From positions 2,380,001 through 2,444,000 of the forward strand of contig NZ_CP029193.1 in the NCBI RefSeq assembly GCF_008642355.1: a stretch of 64,000 nucleotides of DNA, read 5' to 3'. The notes below the pieces were generated by a model. The model did not search any database, was not told the DNA's origin, and saw only the letters and a program-made list of their open reading frames with translations. Of this stretch, positions 3,189-64,000 are shown in pieces. Each line of letters begins with the position of its first letter. Position 1 is the first letter of the stretch. The translations under genes and the position numbers were made by a program. The stretch comes from Streptomyces venezuelae. GTDB lineage: Bacteria > Actinomycetota > Actinomycetes > Streptomycetales > Streptomycetaceae.

Positions 3189-3201
3189 CTGTACGACCCG
3201 G

Positions 3202-3273
3202 TGGGCGCGGACGGTTTCGAACCGCCGACATCCTCCTTGTAAGGGAGGCGCTCTACCCCTGAGCTACGCGCCC
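3202..3273 (-). tRNA. tRNA-Val (anticodon TAC)
   Basis: Read on the minus strand, this folds as a complete 72-base cloverleaf. It has a 7-bp acceptor stem GGGCGCG/CGCGCCC with discriminator A, a D-arm GCTC/GAGC, an anticodon stem CCTCC/GGAGG with loop CTTACAA (anticodon TAC, reading GUA/GUG valine codons), and a T-arm GGCGG-TTCGAAA-CCGTC. The 3' CCA is not encoded and must be added enzymatically, common for actinomycete tRNAs. It is a single gene, not part of a tRNA cluster, and shows no integrated element or duplicated 3' end that would mark an attachment site. Confidence 0.95.
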
Positions 3274-3471
3274 GGGAACGAGTGGACAGCCTACCTTGCC
3301 GCAGGCCGTGCCCCGCAAACCCCTTTTGCGTCGTCGGCGGGCGGGGCGACGGGAGGGCGGCGTTCGGGGGTTAACCCCACCTGGATCCGGTGGCGGCCCG
3401 GATCCTCCCGGCTCGGAGTGTTCCGTAGAGTCTGTCGGAGAGAGCAAGATCATCTCCAGGGGGAGTCCGTC

Positions 3472-4347
3472 ATGGCCGCTGTCCGCACCCGACGTCCGCG
3501 CGACGCCCGTCGCCCACGCGCCGCCCGCGCCCTCGCCGCCGTCGGCGGAACCGTGGCCGTCGTCCTGCTCGTCGGGGCGTGCGGGGCGGACGCCGACGAC
3601 GACACGGAGCCGGAGCAGCGGACGTTCACGCAGGCGGGCAAGACGCTGACCGTCGAGTCCAGCGACTCGTCGCTGGAGCTGGTCCCCGCGGGGCCGGGCG
3701 CCAAGGGCGTGAAGGTGACCCGATGGTTCCACGGCGAGACCGTGCTCGGTGGCGACCCCAAGGTGACGTGGGAGATGGACGGCGACCGGCTCAAGCTGGG
3801 CATGTCGTGCTCCGGCATCATCGCCAACTGCTCGGCGAAGCACCGCGTGGAGGTGCCCCGCGGGGTCTCCGTCAACGTCGAGAACAAGGATGGCCGGGTC
3901 ACGGCGAGCGGGTTCCGGGACGCCATGAAGGTGCGTTCGCGGGACGGTTCCGTCACCGTCAAGGACGCACGCGCCGCGCTCGACCTGCACAGTTCCGACG
4001 GGGCCATCACCGTCGAGGGGGTCACGGGGGCCCTGGACCTGCGCAGCTCCGACGGGTCCGTCACCGCGCGCGACGTGACGTCCCGGCGCGTGGGCGTCGA
4101 CGCCAGGGACGGGTCCGTGCGGCTGGAGCTGGCCGCCGTGCCGGACCGCGTCGAGGCCCGCAGCAAGGACGGTTCCGTCGACATCGCGGTGCCGGGCTCG
4201 AAGGACGGTGAGCGCGTCCGGTACGACGTGCGGACCGAGACCTCCGACAGCGCCGTCGACGTGTCGGTGCCCAAGGACGACAGCAGCCCCCACCACGTCT
4301 CCGTCCACAGCGCCGACGGCAAAGTCACGGTGCGCAGCGCGAACTAA
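3472..4347 (+). CDS. DUF4097-family repeat lipoprotein
   Basis: A 291-residue secreted lipoprotein. A twin-arginine-rich N-terminus is followed by a hydrophobic stretch ending in the lipobox LVGAC near residue 40, then an acidic linker. The rest consists of repeats with the period motif x-(S/R)-(S/K)-D-G-(S/A)-(V/I)-T-V, seen at least seven times between about residues 140 and 285. This is the right-handed beta pattern of DUF4097/DUF2807-type proteins. Such proteins are probably envelope-associated, with no defined ligand. The ATG follows AGGGGG by about 6 bases, and an upstream in-frame extension to 2965 lacks a ribosome site and runs through the tRNA region. Confidence 0.8.
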   Translation: MAAVRTRRPRDARRPRAARALAAVGGTVAVVLLVGACGADADDDTEPEQRTFTQAGKTLTVESSDSSLELVPAGPGAKGVKVTRWFHGETVLGGDPKVTWEMDGDRLKLGMSCSGIIANCSAKHRVEVPRGVSVNVENKDGRVTASGFRDAMKVRSRDGSVTVKDARAALDLHSSDGAITVEGVTGALDLRSSDGSVTARDVTSRRVGVDARDGSVRLELAAVPDRVEARSKDGSVDIAVPGSKDGERVRYDVRTETSDSAVDVSVPKDDSSPHHVSVHSADGKVTVRSAN

Positions 4348-49910: not shown

Positions 49911-51293
49911 TCACGCCCTTCCCAATTGTCCCCTCAACCTGCGGGCCCGCAGCACGAGTTCCAGCTCGAATCGCCGGTCGGGGTCGTCCACCTCGTCGCC
50001 CCAGAGTTCCCTTATCTGACGGAGGCGGTAGCGGACCGTCTGGGGGTGCACGCCGAGCCGGGCCGCCACCTCGGGGGCGCCGCCGCGGGTCTCCAGCCAG
50101 GCCAGGAGGGTCTCCGCGAGGCGGCGGCCGTGAGCGGGGCCGCAGTGCTCCAGGGGTGCCAGGCAGCGGCGGGCCAGGTCCTCGATCAGCTCCTCGGGCT
50201 GGAGCAGCACCAGCGCCTCGGTGTGCTCCGTGCAGTGCAGGACCTCGCCGGAGGGCAGCAGTCCGCGCTCCATGAGGCGCACCGCCGCCTCCGCCCAGCG
50301 CAGCGACTTCGCGGCGTCGGCGAGGGCCACGGGCGGGCCGATGGCGCCGGACCAGCCGGTCATGGCGCGGCGCAGCAGTTCGGGGCGGCCCGCCGCGTCG
50401 GGGTCGGGCACGACCATGCGGGGCTGCTCCGCCTCCATGTCGAGCAGGACGCCCTCGCCGACGGCGGGTGCGACGGCCTCCGGTGCGGGGCGCAGCAGGA
50501 CGCCGACGGCGACGCGTTCGGGCAGCTGCCAGCCGACGCGGGCGGCGCGCTCGCCGAGTCCGTTGCCGAGAGCCGTGGCTCCGGAGCCCGAGCCTGAGCC
50601 GTGACCCGAGCCGTACGACGAGCCCGGCACGCTGTCGGAGCGCCGTTCGGAGAGCAGCAGCTCCATCAACTTGCGTTGCAGGCGCAGCCGTTCCCCCGCC
50701 TCGCGGGCCGCCGCCTCCGCGTAGCCGCGTACGGACTGGTCGACCAGGCCGTCCAGGTACTCGAAACCGGACTCGGCGAGTTCGTACATGGCGGGCGGCG
50801 GGATCTGGATCTGCTGGCCGATCTCGGCGAGGCGGCGCCAGGCGAGACGTACACCCAGGCGGTAGATGGCCTGGAGCGAGTCGAGGCTGCGGCCGTGCAG
50901 GCCCTCGCCGCGGCCGAACTCCTGGAAGACCTCCAGGTGGTAGCGCGGGCGGCCCTCCTGCGACGCCAACTGCTGCACGAAGCCCTCCAGGGCGCGGCGG
51001 ATGCCGATCAGCGCCATCGGCTCGCCCGAGTCGTCGAGGACGACGGGCAGGCCGGGGTACTCGGCGCGGATCTCACGCAGGATGTCCTGGGCGAGCGCGG
51101 GCACCTCCTCCAGGGCGAGCGCGGCGAACTCCCGTACCTGCCGGGGCGGTACGTCGCGCCACGCCGAGCGGAAGGGGGCGCGGTCGCCCGAAGGGCGGTC
51201 GTCCCGGGTGCGGGCGGCATCCGGAGTGCCGCCGTCCGGGAAGGCTCCGTCAGCCGTCAGGTCGTCGGACGCCTTGGCATGAGTCGCGGCCAC
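49911..51293 (-). CDS. PucR-type helix-turn-helix regulator
   Basis: A 460-residue CdaR/PucR regulator without a signal domain I recognise. The N-terminal 45 residues are disordered, then a helical domain (50-225), a Gly/Ser linker (about 229-243, SSYGSGHGSGSGSG), a central beta/alpha domain and the PucR helix-turn-helix (APEVAARLGVHPQTVRYRLR, about 405-424). Same class as FasR at 30480 but clearly a different member, with a longer N-terminus. GTG start six bases after a small membrane protein stop, so translation is probably coupled. Targets unknown. Confidence 0.85.
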   Translation of the reverse strand: MAATHAKASDDLTADGAFPDGGTPDAARTRDDRPSGDRAPFRSAWRDVPPRQVREFAALALEEVPALAQDILREIRAEYPGLPVVLDDSGEPMALIGIRRALEGFVQQLASQEGRPRYHLEVFQEFGRGEGLHGRSLDSLQAIYRLGVRLAWRRLAEIGQQIQIPPPAMYELAESGFEYLDGLVDQSVRGYAEAAAREAGERLRLQRKLMELLLSERRSDSVPGSSYGSGHGSGSGSGATALGNGLGERAARVGWQLPERVAVGVLLRPAPEAVAPAVGEGVLLDMEAEQPRMVVPDPDAAGRPELLRRAMTGWSGAIGPPVALADAAKSLRWAEAAVRLMERGLLPSGEVLHCTEHTEALVLLQPEELIEDLARRCLAPLEHCGPAHGRRLAETLLAWLETRGGAPEVAARLGVHPQTVRYRLRQIRELWGDEVDDPDRRFELELVLRARRLRGQLGRA

Positions 51294-51299
51294 GGTCGC

Positions 51300-51452
51300 T
51301 CACTGCCCCTGAGCCGGGGCCTCGTAATGCACGAGTGGCGTGTTCGGCTGGTCCGGCGTGGCGTCGAGGAGGGCGACGATGCCGAGGGCCGCGCCCACGG
51401 CGAGGAGCGCCGCGGCGGCGACGGTGAGTGAAGCGGCGAGCAGTCGGTGCAT
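51300..51452 (-). CDS. 50-residue membrane peptide upstream of the PucR gene
   Basis: An ATG-to-TGA frame of 50 codons encodes a peptide with one hydrophobic helix (about residues 4-30) and a polar, Pro-rich C-terminus (DATPDQPNTPLVHYEAPAQG). Most third codon positions are G or C, as in real genes here. It ends six bases before the GTG of the PucR regulator. A start signal is weak (AGAGG 13 bases ahead). It may be an exported or anchored small protein, or a leader that couples translation of the regulator. Confidence 0.6.
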   Translation of the reverse strand: MHRLLAASLTVAAAALLAVGAALGIVALLDATPDQPNTPLVHYEAPAQGQ

Positions 51453-51606
51453 TGCGAGGGTCAGCCTCTCTGTCGGAGGTCGTCCCCACCCCGGTCGCGC
51501 AGTCCCTCGGCCGGTGGCCCGGTTCCGGCCACGAAGTCCTGGCCGAAGTCCTGGTCACACAGCCCGCGCCGGCCCCGCCCGGCAAGTCCTCAGTCTCTGC
51601 AATGCA

Positions 51607-51636
51607 TTGACACTTCGTCAAGGGTCGGCCTACGGT
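51607..51636 (+). promoter_or_regulatory. Vegetative-type promoter of the DUF3068/glycan region
   Basis: A perfect -35 box TTGACA (51607-51612) and TACGGT (51631-51636) with 18-base spacing, fitting the Streptomyces principal sigma factor consensus (TTGACA-N18-TAGAPuT) at four of six -10 positions. It lies 56 bases before the DUF3068 start. Confidence 0.65.
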
Positions 51637-51692
51637 TCCCGGCCCATACGGCTCGGTAACACTCTCCCGCCCTCAGCCCAGGAGTGACCCCA

Positions 51693-52727
51693 ATGCGCCG
51701 CACCGCCTCTCCTCTGTCGCTGATCCTTCTCGGGCTCGGCGCGTTTCTTCTGGTCCTGGCACCGATGCTGGCCTGGTACGTCGAGCCACGCGCGAAACGC
51801 ACGCCCGTGGATGTCGACATCACGACCGTCTTCAAAGGCAAGGGAAGCTATTTCGACACCGAGAAGATCAAGACGGTCCACGACAAGGACCTCACCATCA
51901 CCCGTCAGGTGCGCGGCGACGTGGCCGACAGCGAGGACAGCGGACGCGCGGTCTGGGACGTGTCCACCTCGGTGGATCCGGACAAATCCCTGCCCGCGGC
52001 CGACCCGCACGACTCGCTCCAGTGGACGCTGGAGCGCTGGGTCACCGACCGGAAGACGAACGCGCCGGTGCACTGCTGCGGCGAGGAGCCGTACTTCGAG
52101 GGCGAGGCGTACCTGAAGTTCCCCTTCGACGTGGAGAAGCGGTCCTACACCTGGTGGGACAACACGCTGGGCGCGACCGTGCCGCTCACGTACCGCGGCA
52201 CGAAGAAGATCCAGGGGTACGAGGGATACAGGTTCACGGCGACGGTGAAGCCCACCAAGACGGGCACGCGCCAGGTGCCGGGGCGGATGGTCGGGCAGCC
52301 GAAGAAGAGCCAGGTCATCGCCGACGAGTACTACGCCAACCACGGCATCGAGCTCGTCGCGGACCAGCGCACCGGCCGGATCATCTACGCCGCGATCGGC
52401 CCCCGCAAGACGTTGCGCGCGCCCGGGTCGGAGAAGGACGCGACGGTGCTGCTCGACAGCGACCGGATCGCGTTCACGCCCGCCACGCAGAAGGCTCAGG
52501 TGAAGCTCGCGGACGACGACAGCAGTCGGCTGGAACTGGTCGGCGAGACGCTGCCGCTCGGTGCGGGCGTGCTGGGCGGGGTACTCGCCGTGGCGGGCAT
52601 CGTGCTCGTCGTACGAGGGCGTCAGGACGACGGGGCGAACGGTCCCGGGCGGCGCGGAGGCGGAGCGGAGCCGGACAGTCCGAATCCGGAAACGTCACCG
52701 ACCGCCCTGCAGTCCAGCACGATGTGA
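51693..52727 (+). CDS. DUF3068 membrane protein
   Basis: A 344-residue protein of the actinobacterial DUF3068 (PorA-like) family. It has an N-terminal helix (about 8-28), a large extracellular domain with a Cys pair (HCCGEEPYF), conserved WWDNTLG and YEGYRF blocks, and a second helix near residue 288-310, then a disordered tail. As I recall, the mycobacterial and corynebacterial DUF3068 protein (Rv0227c and its relatives) is needed for lipomannan maturation/lipoarabinomannan formation. It precedes GT4, methyltransferase and AftD-type genes, as in the mycobacterial locus. AGGAG is eight bases before ATG. Confidence 0.88.
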   Translation: MRRTASPLSLILLGLGAFLLVLAPMLAWYVEPRAKRTPVDVDITTVFKGKGSYFDTEKIKTVHDKDLTITRQVRGDVADSEDSGRAVWDVSTSVDPDKSLPAADPHDSLQWTLERWVTDRKTNAPVHCCGEEPYFEGEAYLKFPFDVEKRSYTWWDNTLGATVPLTYRGTKKIQGYEGYRFTATVKPTKTGTRQVPGRMVGQPKKSQVIADEYYANHGIELVADQRTGRIIYAAIGPRKTLRAPGSEKDATVLLDSDRIAFTPATQKAQVKLADDDSSRLELVGETLPLGAGVLGGVLAVAGIVLVVRGRQDDGANGPGRRGGGAEPDSPNPETSPTALQSSTM

Positions 52728-52937
52728 TGAGACGTCAGCTGTTGAAAGCGCAGAAATTGTCACTTCGGTGAGTAGCCGCGCGGTACGGGTCGGCGAAAAC
52801 TATCCACCCCCACCCGCGCACAGTCCCCGCACCACCGCACGACCCCGCATGGAGCACCACCCCGCAGAACCCAGCAGGATCGTTCCGCCCGACCGGACCC
52901 CCCACAGTTCCGCACCCTGAGACGAGTTGGAGCACGC

Positions 52938-54155
52938 ATGCCCCAGCACGTACCGTCCTCGCTGCGCGCGGCCACCCCACGCCGCGCGGAGCGTGTTCCG
53001 GCGCTTCCCCCACAGCCGCGCCGGATCGTCTTCCTCGCCCACCGCGACCTCGGCAACCCGGCCGCGGGCGGCTCCGAACTCCTCGTCGACCGGCTCGCCG
53101 ACGGCCTCAGCAAACAGGGCCACCAGGTCACCTTGCTGTGCGGCGGGCCGGCCGCCTACCGCGACTACCGAGTCGTGTCGGCCGGCGGCGACCTCGGCCA
53201 CTACCTGCGGGCCCGCACCGCGTTCACGCGGCAGGTCGGCGACTGCGACCTGCTCGTCGAGGTCTGCAACGGCATGCCGTACCTGGCGCCGCTGTGGCAC
53301 CGCGGGCCCACCCTGTGCCTCGTCAACCACGTCCACACCGACCTGTGGGGGATGCGCTTCCAGGGCGCGCTCGCCCCCGCGGCCCGGATCGGCCGGAGAC
53401 TCGAACACTGGGCGCTCTCGGGCGCGCAGCGCGGCAATCTCCTCGTGGCCGTCTCGCCGTCGACGGCCACGGCGCTGCGCGCCATCGGCGTCGACCGGGA
53501 CCGCATCCGCATCGTGCACAACGGGGTGGAGGAGCCGGGCCCGCTGCACGCCCGCTCCGACGACCCGATGTTCCTGGCGATGGGCCGGCTCGTCGAGTAC
53601 AAGCGCATCGATCTGCTGCTGCGGCTCTGGGAGCGGGTCAGACCCGTCACGGGCGGCCGCCTCGTGATCGTGGGCGACGGCCCCGAACGGCAACGGCTCG
53701 AACAACTCGCCGGTCCCGGAGTCGAGTTCAAGGGACATGTCTCGGAGGCGGAGAAGCACCGGCTGCTCTGTGAGGCGTGGATGCTGCTGCATCCGTCGGC
53801 GGTGGAGGGCTGGGGGCTCGTCATCACCGAGGCGGCGACCCGCTCGACGCCCTCCATCGGTTTCGACGTGCCGGGCGTACGCGACTCCGTGGAGGACGGT
53901 GTGACCGGTCTCCTCGCCCGGGGCGAGAGCTCCTTCGCCGCCGCCTGGTGCACCCTCGCGCTCAGCGCCGAGCGCCGCAGGGCCCTCGGCAAGGCCGCCG
54001 GGGAGCGGGCCGTCCAGTTCCGCTGGGGCAACACCGTGCGGCAGTTCCAGGCCGTGGCGGCCGAAGCGGTCGCCGCACACCAGGTGTCCCAGGGACGCCC
54101 CGTGTCCAAGGACCAGGCGCCCCAAGGACCCCCGACTCCCCCGAGGTCTGCGTGA
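52938..54155 (+). CDS. GT4-type glycosyltransferase
   Basis: A 405-residue GT-B fold transferase. The N-terminal domain begins RRIVFLAHRDLGNPAAGGSELLV (quoted in part: NPAAGGSELLV), with NHVHTDLWG in the acceptor region. The C-terminal donor domain has the GT4 signature EGWGLVITEA (E-x7-E, about residue 289-297), plus MGRLVEYKRIDLLLRLWE and VIVGDGPER. Family members use nucleotide sugars, often mannose or related hexoses. It resembles mycobacterial Rv0225 in position and type. First gene of the coupled operon; GTGA overlap with the following methyltransferase. Confidence 0.9.
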   Translation: MPQHVPSSLRAATPRRAERVPALPPQPRRIVFLAHRDLGNPAAGGSELLVDRLADGLSKQGHQVTLLCGGPAAYRDYRVVSAGGDLGHYLRARTAFTRQVGDCDLLVEVCNGMPYLAPLWHRGPTLCLVNHVHTDLWGMRFQGALAPAARIGRRLEHWALSGAQRGNLLVAVSPSTATALRAIGVDRDRIRIVHNGVEEPGPLHARSDDPMFLAMGRLVEYKRIDLLLRLWERVRPVTGGRLVIVGDGPERQRLEQLAGPGVEFKGHVSEAEKHRLLCEAWMLLHPSAVEGWGLVITEAATRSTPSIGFDVPGVRDSVEDGVTGLLARGESSFAAAWCTLALSAERRRALGKAAGERAVQFRWGNTVRQFQAVAAEAVAAHQVSQGRPVSKDQAPQGPPTPPRSA

Positions 54156-54871
54156 AGGACCCTTCGCTGCGCCGCTCCGCCACGCTCTTCCGGGCCTTCC
54201 TGCGCGAGCAGCAGGAGCCCGAGCGGTGCTACACACTCCTCGCCCGCGACGCCGCCGACCAGGTCGAGGCGTACGGACCGGTGAACGGCCGCGTCGTCGT
54301 CGACATCGGCGGCGGTGGCGGTTACTTCACGGAGGAGTTCCGGCGGCGCGGCGCGCAGTCCTTCCTCTTCGAGCCCGACCCCGCCGAGCTGGGGCCCAAG
54401 CCGCCCGAGGGCGCGGTCGTCGCCGACGGGTACCTGCTGCCCCTCGCGGACGGCGTCGCCGACGTCACGTTCTCCTCGAACGTCCTGGAGCACGTCGACG
54501 ACCCGCAGACGTTCCTGAGCGAGATGGTCCGGGTCACCAGGCCCGGCGGACTGATCTACGTCTCGTTCACCAACTGGCTGTCCCCGTGGGGCGGTCACGA
54601 ATGGGCGCCCTGGCACTATCTGGGCGCCGAACGGGCCCGGGCCCGCTATGAACGACGTAACGGCAAGGCCGCGAAGCACACGCTCGGCGAGAACCTCTTC
54701 GTCCACCACGTCGGAGCGACGCTGCGCCAGGTGCGCGGCCGCGACGACGTGGAGATCGTGTCGGCGCGCTCCCGCTACTGGCCCTTCCTGGCCGGGGCGA
54801 TCACCAAGGTGCCGGGTGTGCGCGAGTTCGCGACCTGGAATCTCCTCCTCATCCTCAGGCGGTGTCCATGA
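54152..54871 (+). CDS. SAM-dependent methyltransferase (Rv0224c-like)
   Basis: A 239-residue class I methyltransferase. Motif I VVDIGGGGGYF (about 49-59), acidic motif II FEPDPAELG, and SSNVLEHVDD (about 110) and LIYVSFTNWLSPWGGHE give the Rossmann core. The run of N-terminal LRRSATLFRAFLREQQEPERCY and WLSPWGGHEWAPWHYLG closely matches, from memory, mycobacterial Rv0224c of the arabinan locus. Substrate unknown, perhaps a lipid carrier or sugar. GTG start inside the GT4 stop; ATGA overlap with the AftD-type gene, so tightly coupled. Confidence 0.88.
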   Translation: MKDPSLRRSATLFRAFLREQQEPERCYTLLARDAADQVEAYGPVNGRVVVDIGGGGGYFTEEFRRRGAQSFLFEPDPAELGPKPPEGAVVADGYLLPLADGVADVTFSSNVLEHVDDPQTFLSEMVRVTRPGGLIYVSFTNWLSPWGGHEWAPWHYLGAERARARYERRNGKAAKHTLGENLFVHHVGATLRQVRGRDDVEIVSARSRYWPFLAGAITKVPGVREFATWNLLLILRRCP

Positions 54872-57800
54872 CCACGGTCCAGGCCCCACCCCCGGCGGCC
54901 GCAAGACCCACGACCGCTGCCCCTGAACCCTCGCGGGGGCCGCGCTCGCGGCGCTGGCTCGTGGGGTTCTGGGCCGTGGTGTTCGTCTCCTTCCTCGCGG
55001 TGAAGCCGGGGCGGATGACGTTCGACACCAAACTCGGTGTCGCCGTCGACCCCTGGCAGTTCCTCTCCGACCTGGGGCAGCTCTGGCACGACAGGGGCGG
55101 CTTCGGCGGCATCCAGGACCAGTACGTCGGCTACGCCTTCCCGATGCTGCCGTTCTACGGCCTGGCCGACCTCGTGCAGCTGCCGGTGTGGCTGGCGGAG
55201 CGGCTCTGGTTCTCGCTGATCGTGGCGGTCGCGTTCTGGGGCGCGCTGCGGCTCGCCGAACGCCTGGGCATCGGCAGCCGCCACAGCCGGCTGCTCGGCG
55301 CGGTGGTGTACGCGCTGTGGCCGACGTTCACCGTGGTCATCGGCTCGACGTCGGCGGCGGCGCTGCCCGGCGCGTTCCTGCCGTGGGTGCTGCTGCCGCT
55401 GGCCGACGACCGGTTCAGCGCGCGCATCGCGGCGTGCCGCTCGGCGCTGATCATCCCGTTCATGGGTGGTGTGAACGCGGCGGCGACGCTCGCCTCGCTG
55501 CTGCCCGTGGGCCTGTACCTGCTGTCCCGCCCGAACGGCCCACGCAAGCGGAAGCTGATCACGTGGTGGGTGCCGGGCGTCGTCCTGGCCACGGCGTGGT
55601 GGGTCGTACCGCTCCTGATGCTCGGCATCTACGGCGAGAACTTCCTGCCGTTCGTCGAGGACTCGGCGACCACGACGGGCACGATGTCGGCGACCGAGGC
55701 GCTGCGCGGCGCCGGCAACTGGGTCGCGTACCTGCACTTCGGCGAGGCCTGGCTGCCCGCGGGGTGGACCGTGGCGACGGCCGTCGTCGCCGTCGTCTGC
55801 TCGGCGCTCGCCGCCGCACTGGGGCTCGCGGGTCTTGCGCGACGTGACCTGCCGGAGCGGCGCTGGCTGGTCCTGACCGTCCTGTCGGTCGCCCTGGTGA
55901 CGCTCGCCGGGTACGGCGGCGCGTTCGGCGCACCCTTCCACGGCACGGTCCAGTCGTGGCTCGACGGCGGACTCGTCCCCTTCCGCAACATCTACAAGTT
56001 CCAGACGGGTCTCGCACTCGCGCTGGTCTTCGGCCTGATGCACCTGGTGGGCGTGGCCGCGCAGGCGCGCGGAGCCCGGCGGGTGCGCGGCAGGCGGTAC
56101 GCGCCGCTGATCGCGGCGGTCCTTGTCCTTCCCGGGCTCGCCCTGCCCTACGTCAACGGGTCGATCCTGCAGCCCGGTTCGTTCCAGAAGCTGCCCACGT
56201 ACTGGCAGACGACGGCCGACTGGCTGGAGAAGTACTCGCCCGACTCGCGCGCCCTCGTGGTGCCCGCCACCGCGCACGGCATCTACACCTGGGGCTCCCC
56301 CATCGACCAGCCCCTCGACGTGCTCGCCGACTCGCGCTGGGCGCAGCGCGACTACGTGCCGTTCGGCGCCCCGGGCAACCGGCGCGCGATGGACGCCGTC
56401 GAGCAGGCGCTGATGACCGGCGCCGAAGTGCCCGGTCTGCGCGACTTCGTGACGCGGGCCGGTCTGTACTACGTCGTCGTGCGCAACGACCTCGACCCGG
56501 ACCAGGTCGGCAACGTGCCCACCGCGACGGTCAAGCGGACCCTGGAGGAGTCCGGTTTCCGCCGCGTCACCGGCTTCGGACCGCAGACCACCGGCGGCAT
56601 CATCCCCGACGACACCCCGGTCCAGGTGGAGGGCCTCTACCCGCGCCAGCGCGCGGTCGAGATCTACGCCCCCGCGGAGGGCGCCGAGCGACCCGGCCAG
56701 GCGGGCCTGAAGCCGGTGTCGAACACGGCGGTCGTCAGCGGCGGCCCCGAATCCCTGCTTCCGCTCTCCGCCGACCCGTCGATGCGCGACCGCCCCACCG
56801 TCCTGACCGGAGACAACCATCCGGGCATCGGAGCCCCCGCCCTGCAGGCGGTCGGTGACGGCATGCGCCGCGCCGACACCCGCTTCGGGCTGGTCAACTC
56901 CAACACCTCGTACACGTACGGGCGTGACGAGCGGAACGCGGTCGACGCGCTGCAGAACCCCGACGAGAAACCGCACCAGATCCTGCCGAGCAAGGGCGTC
57001 GAGCACCAGACGACGTCGGAGCTGCGGGGTGCCAAGTCGGTGTCGGCGTCCAGCTACGGCAACTGGCTCTTCCACCTGCCGCAGTACGACCCGGCGAACG
57101 CCTTCGACGGAAACCCGGCCACGGCCTGGGCGGAGGGCAACGCCGGGTCGGCGGACGGCGAGTGGATCAAGGCGGAGTTCACCACGAAGGTCACGGTGCC
57201 TTCCTCGTTCCGCGTCACCCCGCTGCCGCAGAACGGCACGCGGGCGGCGCCCACCCGGATCCGGGTGGAGACGGAGCACGGCAGCATCACCAGCCCCCTC
57301 CGGCCCGACGGGCAGCCGCAGCGCGTAAAGGCCAAGGCCGGCTCCACGGACTTCGTGAAGATCACGATCCTGGACACGCAGGTGGCACGGCCCGGTCTCA
57401 CCGGCGCGGGCTTCTCGGAGATCTCCATCCCCGAGGTGCGGGTCACCCGCCTCCTCCAGCTCCCGACGGACGCGGAGAAGTCCACCGACGCGAAGTCCAC
57501 GACGTACTCCCTGCACCGCACGTCCGACCCGGGCGCCTTCTCGCAGGTGGACACCGAATCGGGGCTGCACCGCCGCTTCACGACGACGGCGGAGGGCGCG
57601 TACGACGTGAAGGCGAGCGCGGTGGCCGTGCCGGGCCGTGAACTCGACGAGCTGCTGTACAAGGTGGCGCCCGAGCAGGAGCAGCAGATCATCGCGACGG
57701 CCGACTCCACCGCGAAGCTCGGCAGCGGTCTCTCGCCGCGCAACCTCACCGACGGCGACCTGACCACGGCGTGGGTCGCGGGCAGCGACAACCGGCCCGT

Positions 57801-59307
57801 CATCCACCTCAAGTGGCCGGGCAAGACGCCGGTCGGCGAGATCGTGCTGCCCGCGGCGGGCGGTCTGTCCACGCGGCCCGTGAAGATCGAGATCAGCTCG
57901 CCGGACGGCGCGGCGACCGCGGGCGTCGACGAGAACGGCAACGCCCGCTTCGCGCCGATCACCACCGACGAGATGGACATCACCATCACGGAGACGGCGC
58001 CGCTGACGGTCCACAACCCGGTCGCGGACGACGACCTCCAGCTGCCGGTGGGTCTCACCGAGGTGTACGTCCCCGCGCTCGACAAGTACCGCACGAAGCA
58101 GCCCGACCCGAAGGACCGCTTCTCGCTGCCGTGCGGCCAGGGCCCGGTCCTCTCGATCGACGGCGAGCTGTACGAGACGAGCGCGAAGGGCAGGGTCCGG
58201 GACCTCACCGACCGGCGCCCGGTCGACATCACGCTCTGCCAGGAGGGCGAGAAGTCGCCGTCGGTCCGCCTCGACGCGGGGGCGCACAGCCTGGAGACGG
58301 GTGACGCGGGTCCGCTCGCCGTCATGGACGCGTCCCTGACCACCGGCACGCCGGCGGCGCCCGACACGGCCGCGCGCGAGCTGAAGGTCAAGGACTGGCT
58401 GGGCGACCGCCGCGAGCTGACGGTCGGCTCGGGCGCGGCCTCGTACCTCACGACGTACGAGAACGTGAACGACGGCTGGAAGGCGACGCTCAACGGCAAG
58501 GAGCTGACGTCCGTCCGGCTCGACGGCTGGCAGCAGGGCTGGCTGGTGCCGAACGGCGAGGGCGGCACGGTCAAGCTGACCTACGAGCCGTCGCAGATCT
58601 ACGAGATCGGCCTGATCCTCGCCGGTGTCGGCGTCCTCGCCCTGGTGGCGCTGGTCCTCGTACGGCGGCGCGACCCGAACACGGACGGCCCGACCGCCGC
58701 GCCGCCCGCCCCGGGCATCGTCCTCGGCACGGTGGCGCTCACGCTGGTGGCCGCGGTGATCGCGGGACCGTTCGCACTCCTGGTCCCCGCGCTCGCCCTC
58801 CTCGCGTGGTGGCGGCACGCGCTGCTGGTGCCGATCGCGTTCCTCGCGATGGCGGGGGCGGGCATCGCGGCGGCGACGGGAGCAGGCGAGCCGGTCGCGT
58901 CCGACGAGGGAGCGTTCGGCCACGCGGCCCAACTCCTGGCCCTCATCGCACTGTTCGCGGCGCTGGTGACCGTAGGGGAGACACGGCGGCGCACCGTGGA
59001 AACGTTGGAGTACGGCCCGGACACGGTCGGCGGCCCCCCGCCGTACACACCCGCCCCCGCACCGACCCACGACCCGGCGACGCCCCCGCTCGGCACGGAC
59101 CGCGACCCGGCCGCGCACACGCCGCCGCTGCCCCGCCGCAAGCGCGCGGACGACGGCACGGACGGCGCGCCGGAGACGGCCGCGGGCCCGACGGTCTCGG
59201 CCCGTGGCCCGGCATCGGCCCAGCCGGAGCCCGCGCCACCCGGCCGGACGATGCGTTTCCCGCGCCGCAGGCGCCCGTCCACGACAGGAGAAGGCACCCA
59301 GCGATGA
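54868..59307 (+). CDS. AftD-family alpha-(1->3)-arabinofuranosyltransferase
   Basis: A 1479-residue GT-C membrane glycosyltransferase, the size of mycobacterial AftD. Residues 30-420 hold about ten helices. The first extracytoplasmic loop has KPGRMTFDTKLGVAVDPWQF, with the catalytic acidic residues typical of GT-C enzymes using decaprenyl-phospho-arabinose. The large extracellular part carries two discoidin-like carbohydrate-binding segments (AFDGNPATAWAEG about 740; LTDGDLTTAWVAG about 962). Four C-terminal helices follow (about 1245-1385) with a Pro/Thr-rich tail. Mycobacterial AftD acts on arabinogalactan and lipoarabinomannan; neither is known in Streptomyces. Confidence 0.9.
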   Translation: MTTVQAPPPAAARPTTAAPEPSRGPRSRRWLVGFWAVVFVSFLAVKPGRMTFDTKLGVAVDPWQFLSDLGQLWHDRGGFGGIQDQYVGYAFPMLPFYGLADLVQLPVWLAERLWFSLIVAVAFWGALRLAERLGIGSRHSRLLGAVVYALWPTFTVVIGSTSAAALPGAFLPWVLLPLADDRFSARIAACRSALIIPFMGGVNAAATLASLLPVGLYLLSRPNGPRKRKLITWWVPGVVLATAWWVVPLLMLGIYGENFLPFVEDSATTTGTMSATEALRGAGNWVAYLHFGEAWLPAGWTVATAVVAVVCSALAAALGLAGLARRDLPERRWLVLTVLSVALVTLAGYGGAFGAPFHGTVQSWLDGGLVPFRNIYKFQTGLALALVFGLMHLVGVAAQARGARRVRGRRYAPLIAAVLVLPGLALPYVNGSILQPGSFQKLPTYWQTTADWLEKYSPDSRALVVPATAHGIYTWGSPIDQPLDVLADSRWAQRDYVPFGAPGNRRAMDAVEQALMTGAEVPGLRDFVTRAGLYYVVVRNDLDPDQVGNVPTATVKRTLEESGFRRVTGFGPQTTGGIIPDDTPVQVEGLYPRQRAVEIYAPAEGAERPGQAGLKPVSNTAVVSGGPESLLPLSADPSMRDRPTVLTGDNHPGIGAPALQAVGDGMRRADTRFGLVNSNTSYTYGRDERNAVDALQNPDEKPHQILPSKGVEHQTTSELRGAKSVSASSYGNWLFHLPQYDPANAFDGNPATAWAEGNAGSADGEWIKAEFTTKVTVPSSFRVTPLPQNGTRAAPTRIRVETEHGSITSPLRPDGQPQRVKAKAGSTDFVKITILDTQVARPGLTGAGFSEISIPEVRVTRLLQLPTDAEKSTDAKSTTYSLHRTSDPGAFSQVDTESGLHRRFTTTAEGAYDVKASAVAVPGRELDELLYKVAPEQEQQIIATADSTAKLGSGLSPRNLTDGDLTTAWVAGSDNRPVIHLKWPGKTPVGEIVLPAAGGLSTRPVKIEISSPDGAATAGVDENGNARFAPITTDEMDITITETAPLTVHNPVADDDLQLPVGLTEVYVPALDKYRTKQPDPKDRFSLPCGQGPVLSIDGELYETSAKGRVRDLTDRRPVDITLCQEGEKSPSVRLDAGAHSLETGDAGPLAVMDASLTTGTPAAPDTAARELKVKDWLGDRRELTVGSGAASYLTTYENVNDGWKATLNGKELTSVRLDGWQQGWLVPNGEGGTVKLTYEPSQIYEIGLILAGVGVLALVALVLVRRRDPNTDGPTAAPPAPGIVLGTVALTLVAAVIAGPFALLVPALALLAWWRHALLVPIAFLAMAGAGIAAATGAGEPVASDEGAFGHAAQLLALIALFAALVTVGETRRRTVETLEYGPDTVGGPPPYTPAPAPTHDPATPPLGTDRDPAAHTPPLPRRKRADDGTDGAPETAAGPTVSARGPASAQPEPAPPGRTMRFPRRRRPSTTGEGTQR

Positions 59308-60716
59308 CCGCACTGGAACACCCGGCACGACGCGCGGAAGGACCCGGGCGGCCGCCCGCGCGCGTGCCGTTCCCCGTCGTCGACGAGGTCTCACGGCACT
59401 GCCTCCAGGAGGAGGAGCCGGAGACCGTGCACATCGAGGTGCACCTGCCGGGCACGCCGGACCAGGCCCGCCTCCGGGCCGCCTTCACGGAGGCCCTGCG
59501 CCGTCACCCGCGCATCCTGATGCGGGAGGCGCGGGGCCCCTGGTACCGCCGCCGCTACGAGTGGGAACTCACCCCGGACCCGGACGTGGAGGTGGTGACG
59601 TTCCCGCCGCCGGAACCGGACGCGCTGAAGCGGGCCCGCGAACGCGCCCTGGCCGAGGCCCCACCCCTGACCTCCTCACCGCCGATCCGGCTGGAGGTGG
59701 TGGCACAGGTCCCGGCCGCCGAGGACACCGCGTCCGGGGAAGGCGACGGAAGCTCCTCTGCGAAGGACCCCGGTTCCGTCCTCTTCCTCACCATCAACCA
59801 CACCGCCCTCGACGGCCCCGCCTGTCTCCGCGTGCTCGCCACCGCCGCCGAGCTGTACGGGGGCGAGGACAACTCCCCGGCGGCGCCCCCCACCCGAGCC
59901 CCCGCCGCGCCACAGGCGACGGCCGAGCAGACCCCTGCCGACGCGCCCTCGGGCTGGGCGCCCCCCGCCCGGGTCGCGAAGGGGCGGCCCGAGCCCTCCC
60001 CCGGCAACGGCATGCTCGTCGCGGAGCTGCCCGTGCCGAAGCGCCCCAAGGGGTCCCCGTTCACCGTGAACGACCAGCTCATGGTCGCCACCGCGCTGAT
60101 GATCGCCCACTGGAACCGTGAGCACGGCGCCCGCCCGCGCCCGTTCCGCATCACGATGCCCGTGGACGACCGTCCCCGGGACGCCACCATGCCGATCGGC
60201 AACGGCACCCGGCTGGTGGAAGTCCCCTTCGGCGCGGACGAGTTGGCCGCACGGGACTGGACCCCGGAGGCCACCCGCGACCTCCTGCGCCGCACCTCCG
60301 AGAGAACCCGCGCCCTCAAGGCGCTCTCCCGCCCCCAACTGGGCCACGGCGCGACGCTCCTGACCGCGCCCGTCCTGCCCGTCACCCTCCGCGCCGCCGT
60401 CACGCGGGGCCTGCGCAGGGCCGCCGCGCCCTGGACGTCGACGACGCTCCTGAGCAACATCGGCCGGGTCCCCTACGCCCTGGACTTCGGCGACGCGGGC
60501 CGCGCGCACGCCGTCTGGTTCTCCGCGCCCGCCCGGCTGCCACGCGGCCTCACCGTGACCACCGCGTCGACGGCGGGCCGGCTGCACCTCGCCCTGCGCT
60601 GGTCGAAGACGCTGCTCAGCCACGGCGACGGCTCGCACCTGCGCGACCTGTTCGAGCACTACCTCCACGCGACGGAACACACCGAACCCCACGAGACCCA
60701 CGGGGGGTCCACGTGA
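59304..60716 (+). CDS. Condensation-fold acyltransferase
   Basis: A 470-residue CoA-dependent/condensation-domain-like protein (PapA and NRPS-C superfamily). The catalytic HxxxDG is present as NHTALDGPAC (about residue 170); the C-terminal floor-loop region is recognisable around TLLSNIGRVPY (about 383). An Ala/Pro-rich loop (about 190-230) replaces the usual linker. PapA-like relatives add acyl chains to sugars or polyketide diols in glycolipids. Its ATGA overlap with aftD strongly suggests acylation of the same product. Carrier or acyl-CoA donor is unknown. Confidence 0.85.
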   Translation: MTALEHPARRAEGPGRPPARVPFPVVDEVSRHCLQEEEPETVHIEVHLPGTPDQARLRAAFTEALRRHPRILMREARGPWYRRRYEWELTPDPDVEVVTFPPPEPDALKRARERALAEAPPLTSSPPIRLEVVAQVPAAEDTASGEGDGSSSAKDPGSVLFLTINHTALDGPACLRVLATAAELYGGEDNSPAAPPTRAPAAPQATAEQTPADAPSGWAPPARVAKGRPEPSPGNGMLVAELPVPKRPKGSPFTVNDQLMVATALMIAHWNREHGARPRPFRITMPVDDRPRDATMPIGNGTRLVEVPFGADELAARDWTPEATRDLLRRTSERTRALKALSRPQLGHGATLLTAPVLPVTLRAAVTRGLRRAAAPWTSTTLLSNIGRVPYALDFGDAGRAHAVWFSAPARLPRGLTVTTASTAGRLHLALRWSKTLLSHGDGSHLRDLFEHYLHATEHTEPHETHGGST

Positions 60717-61462
60717 CCAGCGCCCCCACGACCACCGCCCGCCAACGCCCGAAAGGACTCCGGGACTTCTACGAGAACCCGGCCGTCCCCGTCGCGTCGG
60801 GCGACGCCCGCTCCATCCGCCAGGCCCGCATCCTCGCCGCCGCGCTCGGCCCCGCCACCACCCGCACCGCCACGGTCCTCGACATCGGCTGCGGCGACGG
60901 CACGGCGGCGGCGACCGCGGCGCCGCTCCTCGCCGGGCACCGCGTCGTCGGCGTGGACTGGTCGCAGGACGCCCTGAAGCGCGCACACGCCCGCCTGCCG
61001 TACGTCGTGCGCGGCGAACTCTCCGACGGCGGACTGCCGTTCGCCGACGGGGCGGCCGACGCCGTGCTGTTCAGCGAGGTCGTCGAGCACCTCGTCGACC
61101 CGGACAGCGCCCTGGACGAGCTGAGAAGGGTGCTGCGACCGGGCGGGCACCTGATGCTGTCCACCCCGAACCTCGCCGCCTGGTACAACCGCGGCCTGCT
61201 TCTCGCCGGAGTGCAGCCCGTGTTCTCCGAGGTGAGCCTGCGCGGCATCCACGGCAGGCCGGGCAAGGAGGTCGTGGGGCACCTGCGGCTCTACACGGCA
61301 CGCGCGCTGCGCGAGTTCGTCGCCGCGTCCGGCTTCGAGGTCGTACGCCTGTCGGGGGCACCCTTCCATGGCGTGCCACGCCCGCTGCGCGCCCTGGACC
61401 GGCTGGCCTGCGCCGTACCGAGCGCCGCGTCGATCCTCCTGCTGCACGCCCGAAAGGCCTGA
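60713..61462 (+). CDS. SAM-dependent methyltransferase
   Basis: A 249-residue class I methyltransferase. Motif I VLDIGCGDGTAA (about 55-66), LFSEVVEHLVDPDSAL (about 120) and RVLRPGGHLMLSTPN mark the UbiE/Methyltransf_11 group. The N-terminus RPKGLRDFYENP is also seen in methyltransferases of surface-polysaccharide loci, as I recall. GTG start overlapping the condensation gene's stop (GTGA). Second of three methyltransferases in the operon, unrelated in detail to the first. Confidence 0.87.
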   Translation: MTSAPTTTARQRPKGLRDFYENPAVPVASGDARSIRQARILAAALGPATTRTATVLDIGCGDGTAAATAAPLLAGHRVVGVDWSQDALKRAHARLPYVVRGELSDGGLPFADGAADAVLFSEVVEHLVDPDSALDELRRVLRPGGHLMLSTPNLAAWYNRGLLLAGVQPVFSEVSLRGIHGRPGKEVVGHLRLYTARALREFVAASGFEVVRLSGAPFHGVPRPLRALDRLACAVPSAASILLLHARKA

Positions 61463-61464
61463 CC

Positions 61465-62385
61465 ATGTGGTGGGGCGTGGCCGCGGCGCTGATCGCGAAC
61501 CTGCTCTACAGCACCGGTTTCGTCCTGGAGAAACGGGCGTTGACGGCGATGCCGTCGGTGAGCGTCCGCAGCCCCGCGCGGCTGCTGCGCCAGGTGCTCG
61601 GCAGCCCGCTGTGGATCGGCGGCTCGCTGGCCCTCGCGGCGGGCTTCGGCGCGCAGCTCGCCGTGTACCGCACACTGCCGATCGCCGCGGCGCAGGGCAT
61701 CTTCGTGTCGGGTCTCGTCCTTCTCCTGCTGCTCTCCTCCGTCCTGCTCGGCGAGCGGACGTCGGGCCGTGAGCGGTACGCGGTCGCCGGGATCCTGATC
61801 GCGCTCCTGATGGTGGTCCTCTCCCTCAACGAGGACAACGACACGGTCGGCCACGGCGCGCCCGTGCCACTGATCCTCACCGTGTGCCTGCCCTCGCTCG
61901 CCGCGGGCGTCTGGCTGTACGGCTCCGCGGAGCGCCGCGCCAAGCACCGGCACCGCATGCCGACGGCGGGCGTCGAGTACGGCGTCGCGGTCGGGCTCCT
62001 GTACGGGGTGAGTTCACTCGCCATCAAAGGCGTGTCCAGCTATCTGACGACGGAGGACATCGGCGGCGCGGTCGGCGACCTGCTGCGCTCGCCCTACCCC
62101 TACCTGCTGCTCTTCACCGGCGCGTTCGGCCTGGTCATGTCGCAGGCGGCCCTCCAGCGCTGCCGGGCGTCCCTCATCGTCCCCGTGTGCACCACGGTGA
62201 CGTCACTGTTCACGGCGGTGCTGGGGACGCTGGCGTTCGGCGAGGCACTGCCGCACGAACCGGTGCGCCTCACGCTGCGCATCGCGGGCACGGTCCTCGC
62301 CGTGTCCGTCCTCGTCGCCATGCCGAAGCACGACACGGCACCTCCCCCTCCCTCGACCGCTCCCAAGGAGTTGACCAGCGGATGA
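61465..62385 (+). CDS. DMT-superfamily (EamA-like) transporter
   Basis: A 306-residue protein with nine to ten membrane helices (about 1-25, 45-70, 75-93, 97-118, 130-152, 170-190, 210-230, 240-258, 268-285), two EamA-like halves and a Pro/Thr tail. Opens WWGVAAALIANLLYSTGFVLEKRAL, the form of NIPA/EamA-like exporters. In a glycan operon it may flip a lipid-linked intermediate or a precursor across the membrane, but small metabolite or magnesium export cannot be excluded. Starts two bases after the methyltransferase stop. Confidence 0.87.
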   Translation: MWWGVAAALIANLLYSTGFVLEKRALTAMPSVSVRSPARLLRQVLGSPLWIGGSLALAAGFGAQLAVYRTLPIAAAQGIFVSGLVLLLLLSSVLLGERTSGRERYAVAGILIALLMVVLSLNEDNDTVGHGAPVPLILTVCLPSLAAGVWLYGSAERRAKHRHRMPTAGVEYGVAVGLLYGVSSLAIKGVSSYLTTEDIGGAVGDLLRSPYPYLLLFTGAFGLVMSQAALQRCRASLIVPVCTTVTSLFTAVLGTLAFGEALPHEPVRLTLRIAGTVLAVSVLVAMPKHDTAPPPPSTAPKELTSG

Positions 62386-62609
62386 ACCCCGAAGACCCGC
62401 TGCTGAAGATCCTCGCGTGCCCGCTCGACAAGGGCCCCCTGCACCTGCTCGCCGCCGAGGAACCCCTCGTACCGGAGGAGTCGCTGTACAACCCCCGGCT
62501 GCGGCGCCGCTACCCGGTCCTCGACGGCATACCCCAGCTGCTCCCCTCCTCCGGCGAGCAGGTCCCCGAGGAGGAGCACGAGCAGCTGCTCCAGCGCATG
62601 TCCCCGTGA
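62382..62609 (+). CDS. Trm112-like small protein
   Basis: A 75-residue Trm112/UPF0434-like protein. LLKILACPLDKGPLHLL (residues 7-23) is the family opening, and RRRYPVLDGIPQLLPS (about 40-55) its conserved end. Only one Cys remains of the usual CPxC zinc knuckle (CPLD), so metal binding is doubtful. In eukaryotes and archaea Trm112 activates several methyltransferases; in bacteria it often neighbours glycosyl- or methyltransferases. With three methyltransferases in this operon, a partner role is plausible. ATGA overlap with the transporter. Confidence 0.85.
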   Translation: MNPEDPLLKILACPLDKGPLHLLAAEEPLVPEESLYNPRLRRRYPVLDGIPQLLPSSGEQVPEEEHEQLLQRMSP

Positions 62610-62638
62610 CGAGAACACCCCGTGACGAGAGGGTCCGC

Positions 62639-63442
62639 ATGACTTTCGCCGCCCGCGTGGCGCCCTATGTCCCCGACCGTCTGATCGCCTCCCTGGCCCG
62701 TCTCGTCTATCCGCGCTTCGAGCCGGAGCTCGGCAGGCTCGCCGACCTCTGCCCGCCGGGCTGCGGCACCGCGGTGGACGTCGGCGGCTGGTACGGCCCC
62801 TGGTCGCACCGGCTCGCCTCGCGCGCGCAGCGCGTGGTGACCGTCGAGCCGGTGCCGCATCTGGCGCGGCTCCTCGCGGCCAGTACACCCCGCAACGTCC
62901 GGGTGATCCAGGGCGCGGCGACGGACCGGCCCGGCACGGCCAGGCTCTGGCTGCCGCGCGGCGACCGCGGGGAGAGAGGTGTGTCGTCCCTGGTCCGCAG
63001 GGACATCCACCACGTGGCGGTGGACGTGCCGTGTCTGACCCTGGACGGCCTGGGCCTGCGGGACGTGCACTTCGTCAAGATCGACGTGGACGGCAACGAG
63101 CTGCGGGTCCTGCACGGCGCGCGCGAGCTGATCGCCCGCGACCGTCCGGCGATCTTCCTGGAGCTGGAGTCACGCATCCAGCCGACCGCCCCGATCGTGG
63201 AACTCCTGACCGCCCGGCACGGCTACCGGGGCTGGGTGCTGCCGCACGACAGCTGGGTGCCGCTCGACGCGTTCGATCTGGAGACGCACCAGTCCGGCAC
63301 GTCGTACGTCGTGTCGCAGGGACTGCTGCGCCGCGTCCTCACGCCGCGCCACCCCCGCTACGTCAACTCGGTCCTGTTCCTCCCCGACGGGCACCGCCCG
63401 GGAGCGCTCGCGGTGCGCGACGATGGGGTGCATGCCCGCTAG
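62639..63442 (+). CDS. FkbM-family methyltransferase
   Basis: A 267-residue FkbM-type methyltransferase: AVDVGGWYGPWSH (motif I, about 43-55), VEPVPHLARLL, VKIDVDGNELRVLHGA (about 147-162) and IFLELES. Members O-methylate sugars or polyketides, and are common in glycan clusters. ATG 62639 has GAGAGGG five to six bases upstream. Gap of 29 bases after trm112, the longest in the operon apart from the start. No signal peptide. Confidence 0.88.
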   Translation: MTFAARVAPYVPDRLIASLARLVYPRFEPELGRLADLCPPGCGTAVDVGGWYGPWSHRLASRAQRVVTVEPVPHLARLLAASTPRNVRVIQGAATDRPGTARLWLPRGDRGERGVSSLVRRDIHHVAVDVPCLTLDGLGLRDVHFVKIDVDGNELRVLHGARELIARDRPAIFLELESRIQPTAPIVELLTARHGYRGWVLPHDSWVPLDAFDLETHQSGTSYVVSQGLLRRVLTPRHPRYVNSVLFLPDGHRPGALAVRDDGVHAR

Positions 63443-64000
63443 CTCTTCGCCCGCCTCCGGCCCGTTCACCGCGCTGGACTTCCAGCTGGTCCTGCTGCGC
63501 CGGATGGCCGACCACAACGCCGACCTCGTGGAGCGCGCACGGCACACGCTGGGTGTCTCCGTCGCGGAGATGCGGGAGGCCAACCGCCGCTGGCAGGCGA
63601 TGACCCGCTCCTCGCGGTCGCGGAGCGCTGCCTCCCGGTACCGCTCGGTCCTCGGCCCGCCCGAGGCGACGGTCCGCCGCCGGATCGGCGACCTGGAGTG
63701 CGAGGCGCTGCTGTGGCCGGTGCCGCTCTGGCCCGAGCTGCGCTTCGAGGTGCTGCGGGCACCGAACGGAGCGGTGTGGAACATGGGGGCACCTCCCATG
63801 CTTTTCGAGCTATGGGGGAGGTTGGTGCGCGCGCCGGGGACCGCCGGTCCCGAGCTGCGCACGCTCGACGACCTCACGCCCTGGTCGTGCACGGTCGACG
63901 AGGCAGCGCGCGCGTTCGCGCCGGCGCGCCCCATGGAGGGGACGGCGCCGACGCGGTGGGGCCTCGCGTTCGAGGCGGTGGACGGGGCCGGTGAACGGCG
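63432..64000 (+). CDS. Hypothetical protein, incomplete at window end
   Basis: A frame starting at ATG 63432, 11 bases inside the end of the FkbM gene, stays open to the last base (over 189 codons). It encodes an Arg/Leu/Trp-rich protein (FQLVLLRRMADHN, VSVAEMREANRRW, ECEALLWPVPLWPEL) without signal peptide. Strong G/C third-position bias except in a 40-base stretch at 63783-63820 that looks like an inserted dispersed palindrome, read through in frame as MGAPPMLFELWGR. Function not recognised; overlap suggests it belongs to the glycan operon. Confidence 0.65.
   Translation, partial: MPASSSPASGPFTALDFQLVLLRRMADHNADLVERARHTLGVSVAEMREANRRWQAMTRSSRSRSAASRYRSVLGPPEATVRRRIGDLECEALLWPVPLWPELRFEVLRAPNGAVWNMGAPPMLFELWGRLVRAPGTAGPELRTLDDLTPWSCTVDEAARAFAPARPMEGTAPTRWGLAFEAVDGAGER
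63783..63820 (+). repeat. Dispersed palindromic repeat inside a coding frame
   Basis: ATGGGGGCACCTCCCATGCT and the following GGGGGAGG form an imperfect hairpin (CCTCCCAT with ATGGGGGAGG). The pattern GGGGGCACCTCCC...GGGGGAG is one I recall as widely dispersed in Streptomyces genomes. It sits in frame within the gene at 63432. Confidence 0.6.

Follow-up and report, generated by a model that had tools for sequence, protein, structure and literature searches.

The window analysed here is a 64,000-nucleotide stretch of a Streptomyces venezuelae genome (contig C1, positions 2380001-2444000 of a genome assembled as one 8.02 Mb contig), and it carries nine consecutive + strand genes at 51693-63442, among them genes for a PgfA protein and an AftD arabinofuranosyltransferase homologue. 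These genes are best explained as an operon, conserved in Streptomyces, for making and exporting an envelope glycolipid or lipoglycan that is acylated and methylated, with a polyprenyl-phosphate sugar as donor; in this strain the product would be arabinofuranosylated. We consider the chances for and against this account to be about evenly balanced.

Gene content and conservation

A sequence-only reading of the window had described nine gene families in a fixed order on the + strand, and all nine are present as described. Gene starts were read by eye from the open reading frames (ORFs) and the lengths then checked, which gives the following list.

51693-52727, + strand: PgfA, 344 aa
52938-54155, + strand: GT4 glycosyltransferase, 405 aa, in a position like that of Rv0225/cg3166
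54152-54871, + strand: MT1, S-adenosylmethionine (SAM) methyltransferase, MtrP/Rv0224c-like, 239 aa
54868-59307, + strand: AftD, 1479 aa
59304-60716, + strand: condensation-fold acyltransferase (fold from a predicted model), 470 aa
60713-61462, + strand: MT2, SAM methyltransferase, 249 aa
61465-62385, + strand: DMT/EamA-superfamily membrane protein, 306 aa
62382-62609, + strand: Trm112-like protein, 75 aa
62639-63442, + strand: FkbM-family methyltransferase, 267 aa

Most junctions overlap, as had been claimed: five of the eight are 4-nt ATGA or GTGA overlaps, and the remaining gaps are +2, +29 and +210 nt, the largest lying between PgfA and GT4. The earlier boundaries were right at the downstream end, where 63442 is the end of FkbM, but the first gene begins 86 nt downstream of the start given, 51607.

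The linkage proposed for other Streptomyces was confirmed. A first set consisted of 80 loci, of which 54 had enough flanking sequence. Gene order was kept in 54/54 of these usable loci, so that the nine-gene arrangement is more than chance; all nine genes were found in 45, with PgfA missing in 5 and FkbM in 4. A gene for a PucR-type regulator flanks the operon in 53/53 loci with enough flank and the same downstream gene in 52/53, and the surroundings are therefore constant. Within this set of 80, the AftD of the window is closest to that of S. atriruber, with 92% identity in the best segment.

A second set, which overlaps the first in species, comprised 40 loci chosen among the AftD sites of a sample of 179 Streptomyces genomes. 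It gave 38 usable loci after exclusion of L167 (too short) and L172 (AftD unmatched there, though present by other searches). Order was again kept in 38/38, and all nine genes were present in 23, FkbM being missing in 12, DMT in 2 and PgfA in 1. The operon is not universal in the genus, AftD being present in 72 of the 179 genomes.

AftD and the absence of an Emb match

The operon AftD matches the GT-C domain PF11847 with 754.5 bits over 655 residues (cut-off 26), and is followed by C-terminal modules matching CBM_AftD and F5_F8_type_C and by C-terminal transmembrane helices, seen as four hydrophobic segments at 1247-1367. Residues 26-855 and 922-1372 align with solved mycobacterial AftD (507.5 bits to 6wbx). 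Family membership is thus established by a near-full-length match to a solved structure and not by generic GT-C helices.

After the first hydrophobic segment comes a D-T-K (Asp-Thr-Lys) motif, PGRMTFDTKLG in the host. The Asp of this first loop is the putative catalytic residue, because of the GT-C rule for a first-loop acidic residue (PMC12041299); PMC6034362 instead marks motifs after transmembrane helix (TMH) 6 and between TMH10 and 11. Outside Streptomyces the residue is Asp in 45/45 AftD loci from 29 genomes (44 by pattern, L212 by eye). The host protein therefore resembles mycobacterial AftD (6w98, 6wbx) in near-full-length similarity, GT-C domain, carbohydrate-binding modules (CBMs) and first-loop D-T-K. 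The systems differ in that some Streptomyces AftD proteins have Glu for this Asp, and in that no EmbA, EmbB or EmbC was found in the host genome.

The Emb domain PF04602 had no match in any of 9 Streptomyces genomes, including the host. In a phylum sample of 326 genomes it scored above cut-off in 10, all from the mycobacterial-type family f3, and below cut-off in three others. A long arabinan of the kind found in arabinogalactan or lipoarabinomannan (LAM) is consequently unlikely in the host. The host genome also contains six GT87 genes, considered as possible AftC or PimE; three of them resemble the PRK13375 mannosyltransferase below its cut-off.

Genes for an arabinofuranosyl donor

Genes for the synthesis of decaprenyl-phospho-arabinose (DPA), which the sequence-only reading had named as a point to check, were found in the host at C1:5014635-5018529, by searches with PF04030 and PF01040. 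The cluster consists of DprE2 (388.7 bits, cut-off 250), DprE1 (682.6 bits, cut-off 500), a PAP2-like phosphatase and a UbiA-type DPPR synthase (419.9 bits, cut-off 207), the three cut-offs being those of NCBIfam equivalogs. For the phosphatase the only matches, all below cut-off, are to general undecaprenyl-diphosphatase models. Two of the proteins have solved counterparts: the decaprenyl-phosphate phosphoribosyltransferase 8j8j for the DPPR synthase, and solved DprE1, which can be aligned with residues 42-501 of the host DprE1, the AKDSR segment at the C terminus included.

In this DprE1 (L008:7413-8918 = C1:5015413-5016918, - strand), Ala stands in place of the Cys of the segment W-N-[IV]-C-V-D-F-P, a position occupied by Cys in the solved mycobacterial DprE1 sequences shown. 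We take this Cys to be the site modified by covalent DprE1 inhibitors.

Across the 179 Streptomyces genomes, DprE1 is above cut-off in 93 and matches at E <= 1e-90 in 98, a count that includes a DprE1 fragment in G464 and treats G398 (two separate pieces) as lacking it. DPPR synthase is above cut-off in 65, of which 64 have DprE1, and 14 further genomes have a match below cut-off. Twenty DprE1 neighbourhoods were read, 18 of them picked for having no DPPR synthase above cut-off and two as positives (G171, G193). DprE1 adjoins DprE2 in 20/20. PAP2 and UbiA genes lie beside the pair in G171 and G193 and as remnants in G456, and nothing of them is found in the other 17 (L227, L228, L229, L231-L242, L245 and L246). 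Since DprE1 and DprE2 are kept there without a DPPR synthase above cut-off, the ribosyl lipid in these 17 strains may come from another enzyme, perhaps a UbiA relative scoring below cut-off.

AftD and DprE1 go together across the phylum. Among the 326 genomes, 34 have both a full AftD and DprE1, 11 AftD only, 16 DprE1 only and 265 neither; six genomes with weak AftD matches were scored as without, and the statistics ignore kinship. Family f29, of a different class, has eight AftD-bearing genomes; AftD and DprE1 are 6-25 kb apart in six of them and on separate contigs in the other two. At four f29 loci (L251-L254), UbiA, DprE1 and DprE2 stand in a row, with GT4 0.1-6.4 kb after DprE2 and with one or two AftD genes or AftD parts each. 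This is a compact arabinosylation-type locus in genomes with no Emb match. Another 12 genomes that carry both genes were tabulated: in two of them the genes share a contig, at distances of 103 and 495 kb, and in the other ten they are on separate contigs. Linkage outside mycobacteria is therefore shown for f29 only.

PgfA

The first gene product is a PgfA by the NCBIfam equivalog NF053601 (334.7 bits, cut-off 160) and matches PF11271 (DUF3068, Pfam 'PorA') with 273.5 bits (cut-off 29.5). Its predicted model (mean pLDDT 82) matches the M. smegmatis LmcA structures 7shw and 7n3v with TM-scores by target of 0.78-0.82, and more weakly the CD36/LIMP-2 folds, although sequence similarity to LmcA is weak (E 6.6e-4 across 51 residues). 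Hydropathy places hydrophobic segments near both termini. The model is that of a membrane-anchored, probably lipid-carrier-like protein with the LmcA fold.

Streptomyces are not known to have mycolates, and trehalose monomycolate therefore cannot be the ligand of the operon PgfA. According to PMC9678360, trehalose monomycolate is bound by PgfA of M. smegmatis, in which LAM rises when this protein is depleted, while in C. glutamicum loss of lmcA abolishes LAM and truncates lipomannan (LM); lmcA cannot replace pgfA, and the orthology of LmcA and PgfA is left open. A glycolipid or lipoglycan ligand would suit C. glutamicum, M. smegmatis and Streptomyces alike.

The Streptomyces genome differs from the known systems in carrying a second, distant PgfA, at L259:9737-10735 (C1:1929237-1930235), between polA and rpsA; by eye, the same two genes also bracket PgfA in L262, L263 and L264. 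The operon PgfA is not a recent copy of this one: they are 26-30% identical and fall in separate starred clades. PgfA is commoner in the genus than AftD, with a match (E <= 1e-20) in 132/179 genomes.

The remaining operon proteins

The GT4 protein is above the cut-offs of PF00534, PF13692 and PF13439. By position it would be the counterpart of Rv0225. MT1 matches Methyltransf_11 above cut-off and is 40-45% identical to the methyltransferase adjoining GT4 in four f3 loci (L247-L250), and MT2 has matches to Methyltransf_23/11 above cut-off. The Trm112-like protein matches PF03966 (Trm112p; 41.2 bits, cut-off 22), and FkbM matches TIGR01444 (69.7 bits, cut-off 37.7). The DMT protein is below the cut-offs of both NF038012 (39.6 against 50) and EamA (18.1 against 28.2), and is a candidate flippase or exporter.

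For the fifth protein, Pfam gave nothing at E <= 0.1 and sequence comparison gave no relevant protein of solved structure; its C-terminal half matches TIGR02946 (WS/DGAT) weakly (31.3 bits, cut-off 309.95). The structure predicted for it, with medium confidence (mean pLDDT 66, pTM 0.63), resembles condensation domains in Foldseek (best E 2.7e-13, TM-score about 0.5). Nearly all of the 50 matches listed are condensation or heterocyclization domains or structures from nonribosomal peptide synthetases (NRPS) and polyketide synthases (PKS); CmnI and AzeD are among them, of a class not assignable from the title. The HxxxD motif is intact, with H166 and D170 invariant in 32 aligned sequences. The predicted fold and the motif together bear out the earlier description of a condensation-fold acyltransferase, and the gene probably encodes an acyltransferase of the condensation superfamily.

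A crude scan finds no hydrophobic helix in GT4, MT1, MT2, FkbM or the acyltransferase, and these are accordingly assigned to the cytoplasm; DMT and AftD are membrane proteins, and PgfA is anchored in the membrane.

Databases name the fifth gene 'condensation protein' (NCBI) and AftD homologues 'alpha-(1->3)-arabinofuranosyltransferase' or 'DUF3367', and automatic annotation thus already points the same way. A paper on S. rimosus mentions aftD in passing among frequently recombined genes (PMC6437091), and the sole mention of Streptomyces in PMC2440535 is as a source of a resistance gene. A literature search for Rv0225 together with Rv0224c found nothing. In the literature searched we met no account of the operon, which counts only weakly for its novelty.

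Operon surroundings

The flanking regulator gene is divergent from the operon.

49911..51293, - strand: PucR-type regulator, HTH_30 match

From its position, it may control the operon. No sigma-70-like promoter was found across 51000-64000, with a model that is uninformative for Streptomyces, and terminator-like sites in the same interval were not above the shuffled-sequence level, a test likewise uninformative for Streptomyces. Elsewhere in the window, a mechanical ORF at 2965-4347 (DUF4097) overlaps, in its 5' part, a tRNA-Val (tac) encoded on the - strand at 3200-3273; the real start of the ORF probably lies further downstream.

The core module outside Streptomyces

The first four families had been said to occur together in mycobacteria, and in an f3 genome counterparts of GT4, the MtrP-like methyltransferase and PgfA do lie 13-19 kb from an AftD domain (L198, L247). 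In the four f3 loci L247-L250, GT4 and the MtrP-like methyltransferase are adjacent and divergent, with PgfA nearby in two of the four. Beyond mycobacteria, MmpA, GT4, MT1, AftD and PgfA lie between polA and rpsA in L201 (family f7) and L202 (family f5), MmpA scoring 445.4 and 310.8 bits respectively against NF053599 (cut-off 210); L203 and L204 (f5) have GT4, MT1, AftD and PgfA. None of these four genomes has DprE1 at E <= 1e-60 or an Emb match. Among the 120 of 289 matches listed, the nearest named relatives of the L202 PgfA are from Pedococcus and Phycicoccus, which are not known to be mycolate bacteria. Genes that NCBI names for trehalose-lipid delivery are thus present as a set in bacteria not expected to have mycolates.

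In C. glutamicum the neighbourhood cg3161-cg3168 holds AftD, TmaT, LmcA, MmpA, a putative glycosyltransferase and MtrP, and TmaT, MmpA and MtrP act in the acetylation and transport of trehalose corynomycolate (PMC8698533, PMC7775120). From the gene order, cg3164 would be LmcA and cg3165 MmpA. The Streptomyces operon resembles this region and mycobacterial Rv0224c-Rv0236c in bringing together AftD, PgfA/LmcA, GT4, an MtrP-like methyltransferase and an acyltransferase gene. It differs in that MmpA has no match in Streptomyces (0/179 genomes, host included, at E <= 1e-10), that the operon holds no acyltransferase of the TmaT type, that Emb was not matched and that mycolates are not known from the genus, and in the addition of the condensation-fold acyltransferase, MT2, DMT, Trm112 and FkbM. 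The label 'mycobacterial arabinan locus' given in the sequence-only reading is consequently too narrow, as three proteins of the C. glutamicum locus serve trehalose-corynomycolate acetylation and transport and the core is found elsewhere without DprE1 or Emb.

A proposed pathway

The donor, acceptor, order of steps, direction of transport and product that we infer are as follows. GT4 would start or extend an acceptor on the cytoplasmic side of the membrane, and the MtrP-like MT1, MT2, FkbM and the condensation-fold acyltransferase would decorate it in the cytoplasm. The DMT protein could then carry a lipid-linked intermediate across the membrane. Outside, AftD would add a sugar from a polyprenyl-phosphate donor while its CBMs hold the acceptor, and PgfA would escort the lipidic product. 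The likely donor in this strain is polyprenyl-phospho-arabinofuranose, made by DprE1, DprE2, PAP2 and the UbiA-type DPPR synthase. As no Emb polymerase was found, one or a few arabinofuranose (Araf) residues would be expected, and no arabinan of mycobacterial type.

Evaluation of the arabinose assignment

Several observations weigh against this pathway. In the host, the DPA cluster is 2.6 Mb from the operon AftD. Among the 179 Streptomyces genomes, 53 have both AftD and DprE1, 19 AftD only, 45 DprE1 only and 62 neither (odds ratio 3.8), a moderate association. The 19 (of 72 with AftD) lack both DprE1 (E <= 1e-90) and DPPR synthase (E <= 1e-25); eight of them are single-contig genomes, and one (G374) is only 82% complete. 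Loci were fetched for 15 of the 19 and 13 were usable: order is kept in 13/13 and all nine genes are present in 8, so the operon survives without known DPA genes. Conversely, AftD is lacking in 45 of the 98 DprE1-bearing genomes, where DPA must therefore have another user. The first-loop residue of AftD is Glu instead of Asp in 19/66 AftD rows of the same sample, and in 5/80 loci of the 80-locus set. The PgfA-GT4-MtrP-AftD core occurs with MmpA and without DprE1 or Emb in the two other actinobacterial families described above. Functional orthology of corynebacterial LmcA and mycobacterial PgfA is doubted in PMC9678360. Finally, judged by title or start of abstract, none of the papers surveyed deals with a Streptomyces arabinan or with the operon, in a survey that took in little of the subscription literature.

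These points bear most directly on a different donor: the operon would have the same role, AftD would move a sugar other than D-Araf (such as ribofuranose or a different sugar carried on polyprenyl phosphate), and an unrelated pathway would use the DPA genes. The strains that keep the operon without DPA genes, and those with DPA genes and no AftD, count in favour of this explanation. It is also favoured by the distribution of the first-loop Glu, which is found in 11/17 DprE1-negative and 8/49 DprE1-positive rows (Asp in 6 and 41 respectively; Fisher p 3.6e-4; the 66 rows include second AftD copies in two genomes, and one further row was unread). On the AftD tree, however, there are only 5 changes of the Asp/Glu trait and 8 of the DprE1 trait, and no significance is reached with independent pairs, so the association is suggestive and only a lead. 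A precedent comes from the three-component GT136 systems, in which a GT-C transferase with a CBM moves non-Araf pentofuranoses from a polyprenyl-phosphate donor made with a DPPRS-like enzyme (PMC11127046). Donor type and transferase architecture are alike; the GT-C family differs, and the GT136 genes lie inside glycan clusters, whereas the DPA genes here are far from AftD. Against another sugar stand the strong co-occurrence of AftD and DprE1 across the phylum and their linkage in f29, and we regard this explanation as unlikely, though one to be taken seriously.

We think it a good deal less probable that the operon is an acylation and transport module like TmaT-MmpA-MtrP-PgfA, with AftD mainly a membrane scaffold or acceptor binder and arabinose uninvolved. 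The roles of the C. glutamicum proteins fit such a module, as do the acyltransferase gene directly after AftD and the L201 and L202 loci; MmpA is, moreover, reported to be partly homologous to the N-terminal part of AftD (PMC8698533). However, MmpA has no match in the 179 Streptomyces genomes, and AftD retains CBMs and a first-loop acidic residue that a mere scaffold would not need. The fold of the acyltransferase is also unlike that of the AT3 family, to which TmaT presumably belongs.

A specialised-metabolite cluster for a secreted or cell-bound glycosylated small molecule, to which a condensation-fold acyltransferase, three methyltransferases, a transporter and a patchy distribution (72/179) might point, is very improbable given the constant flanks, the lack of any carrier protein, NRPS or PKS gene among the nine, and a core that also occurs in the envelope loci of other actinobacteria, mycobacteria among them.

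An operon for an acylated, methylated envelope glycolipid or lipoglycan thus remains the preferred account. The three findings that would have counted against the sequence-only reading, a genome without DPA genes, an AftD match confined to generic GT-C helices and a lack of linkage in other Streptomyces, were all contradicted by the data. The earlier proposal that the product contains arabinose or another furanose is partly supported, by the DPA genes, the full AftD and the linkage. It does not hold for arabinose as an obligatory part of the operon, because DprE1-negative genomes keep the operon and the association of AftD with DprE1 is moderate.

Implications

Tentatively, and rating it at somewhat less than an even chance, we suggest that PgfA-GT4-MtrP-AftD is an ancient, DPA-independent actinobacterial envelope module that predates mycolic acids. 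The Streptomyces version would have been extended by acylation, methylation and flipping genes for an Emb-independent, PgfA-carried lipoglycan (arabinofuranosylated in DPA-bearing strains), and mycobacteria would later have rebuilt the module into trehalose-mycolate and arabinan machinery.

If the proposed pathway is correct, D-arabinofuranosylation of envelope glycans reaches a major antibiotic-producing genus that has neither Emb nor mycolates. Since the operon occurs in nature both in strains with DPA genes and in strains lacking them, the question of the donor could be tested directly. The original job of PgfA and MtrP, which is now explained by mycolate trafficking, would likewise become open to study in Streptomyces, which are harmless and genetically tractable.

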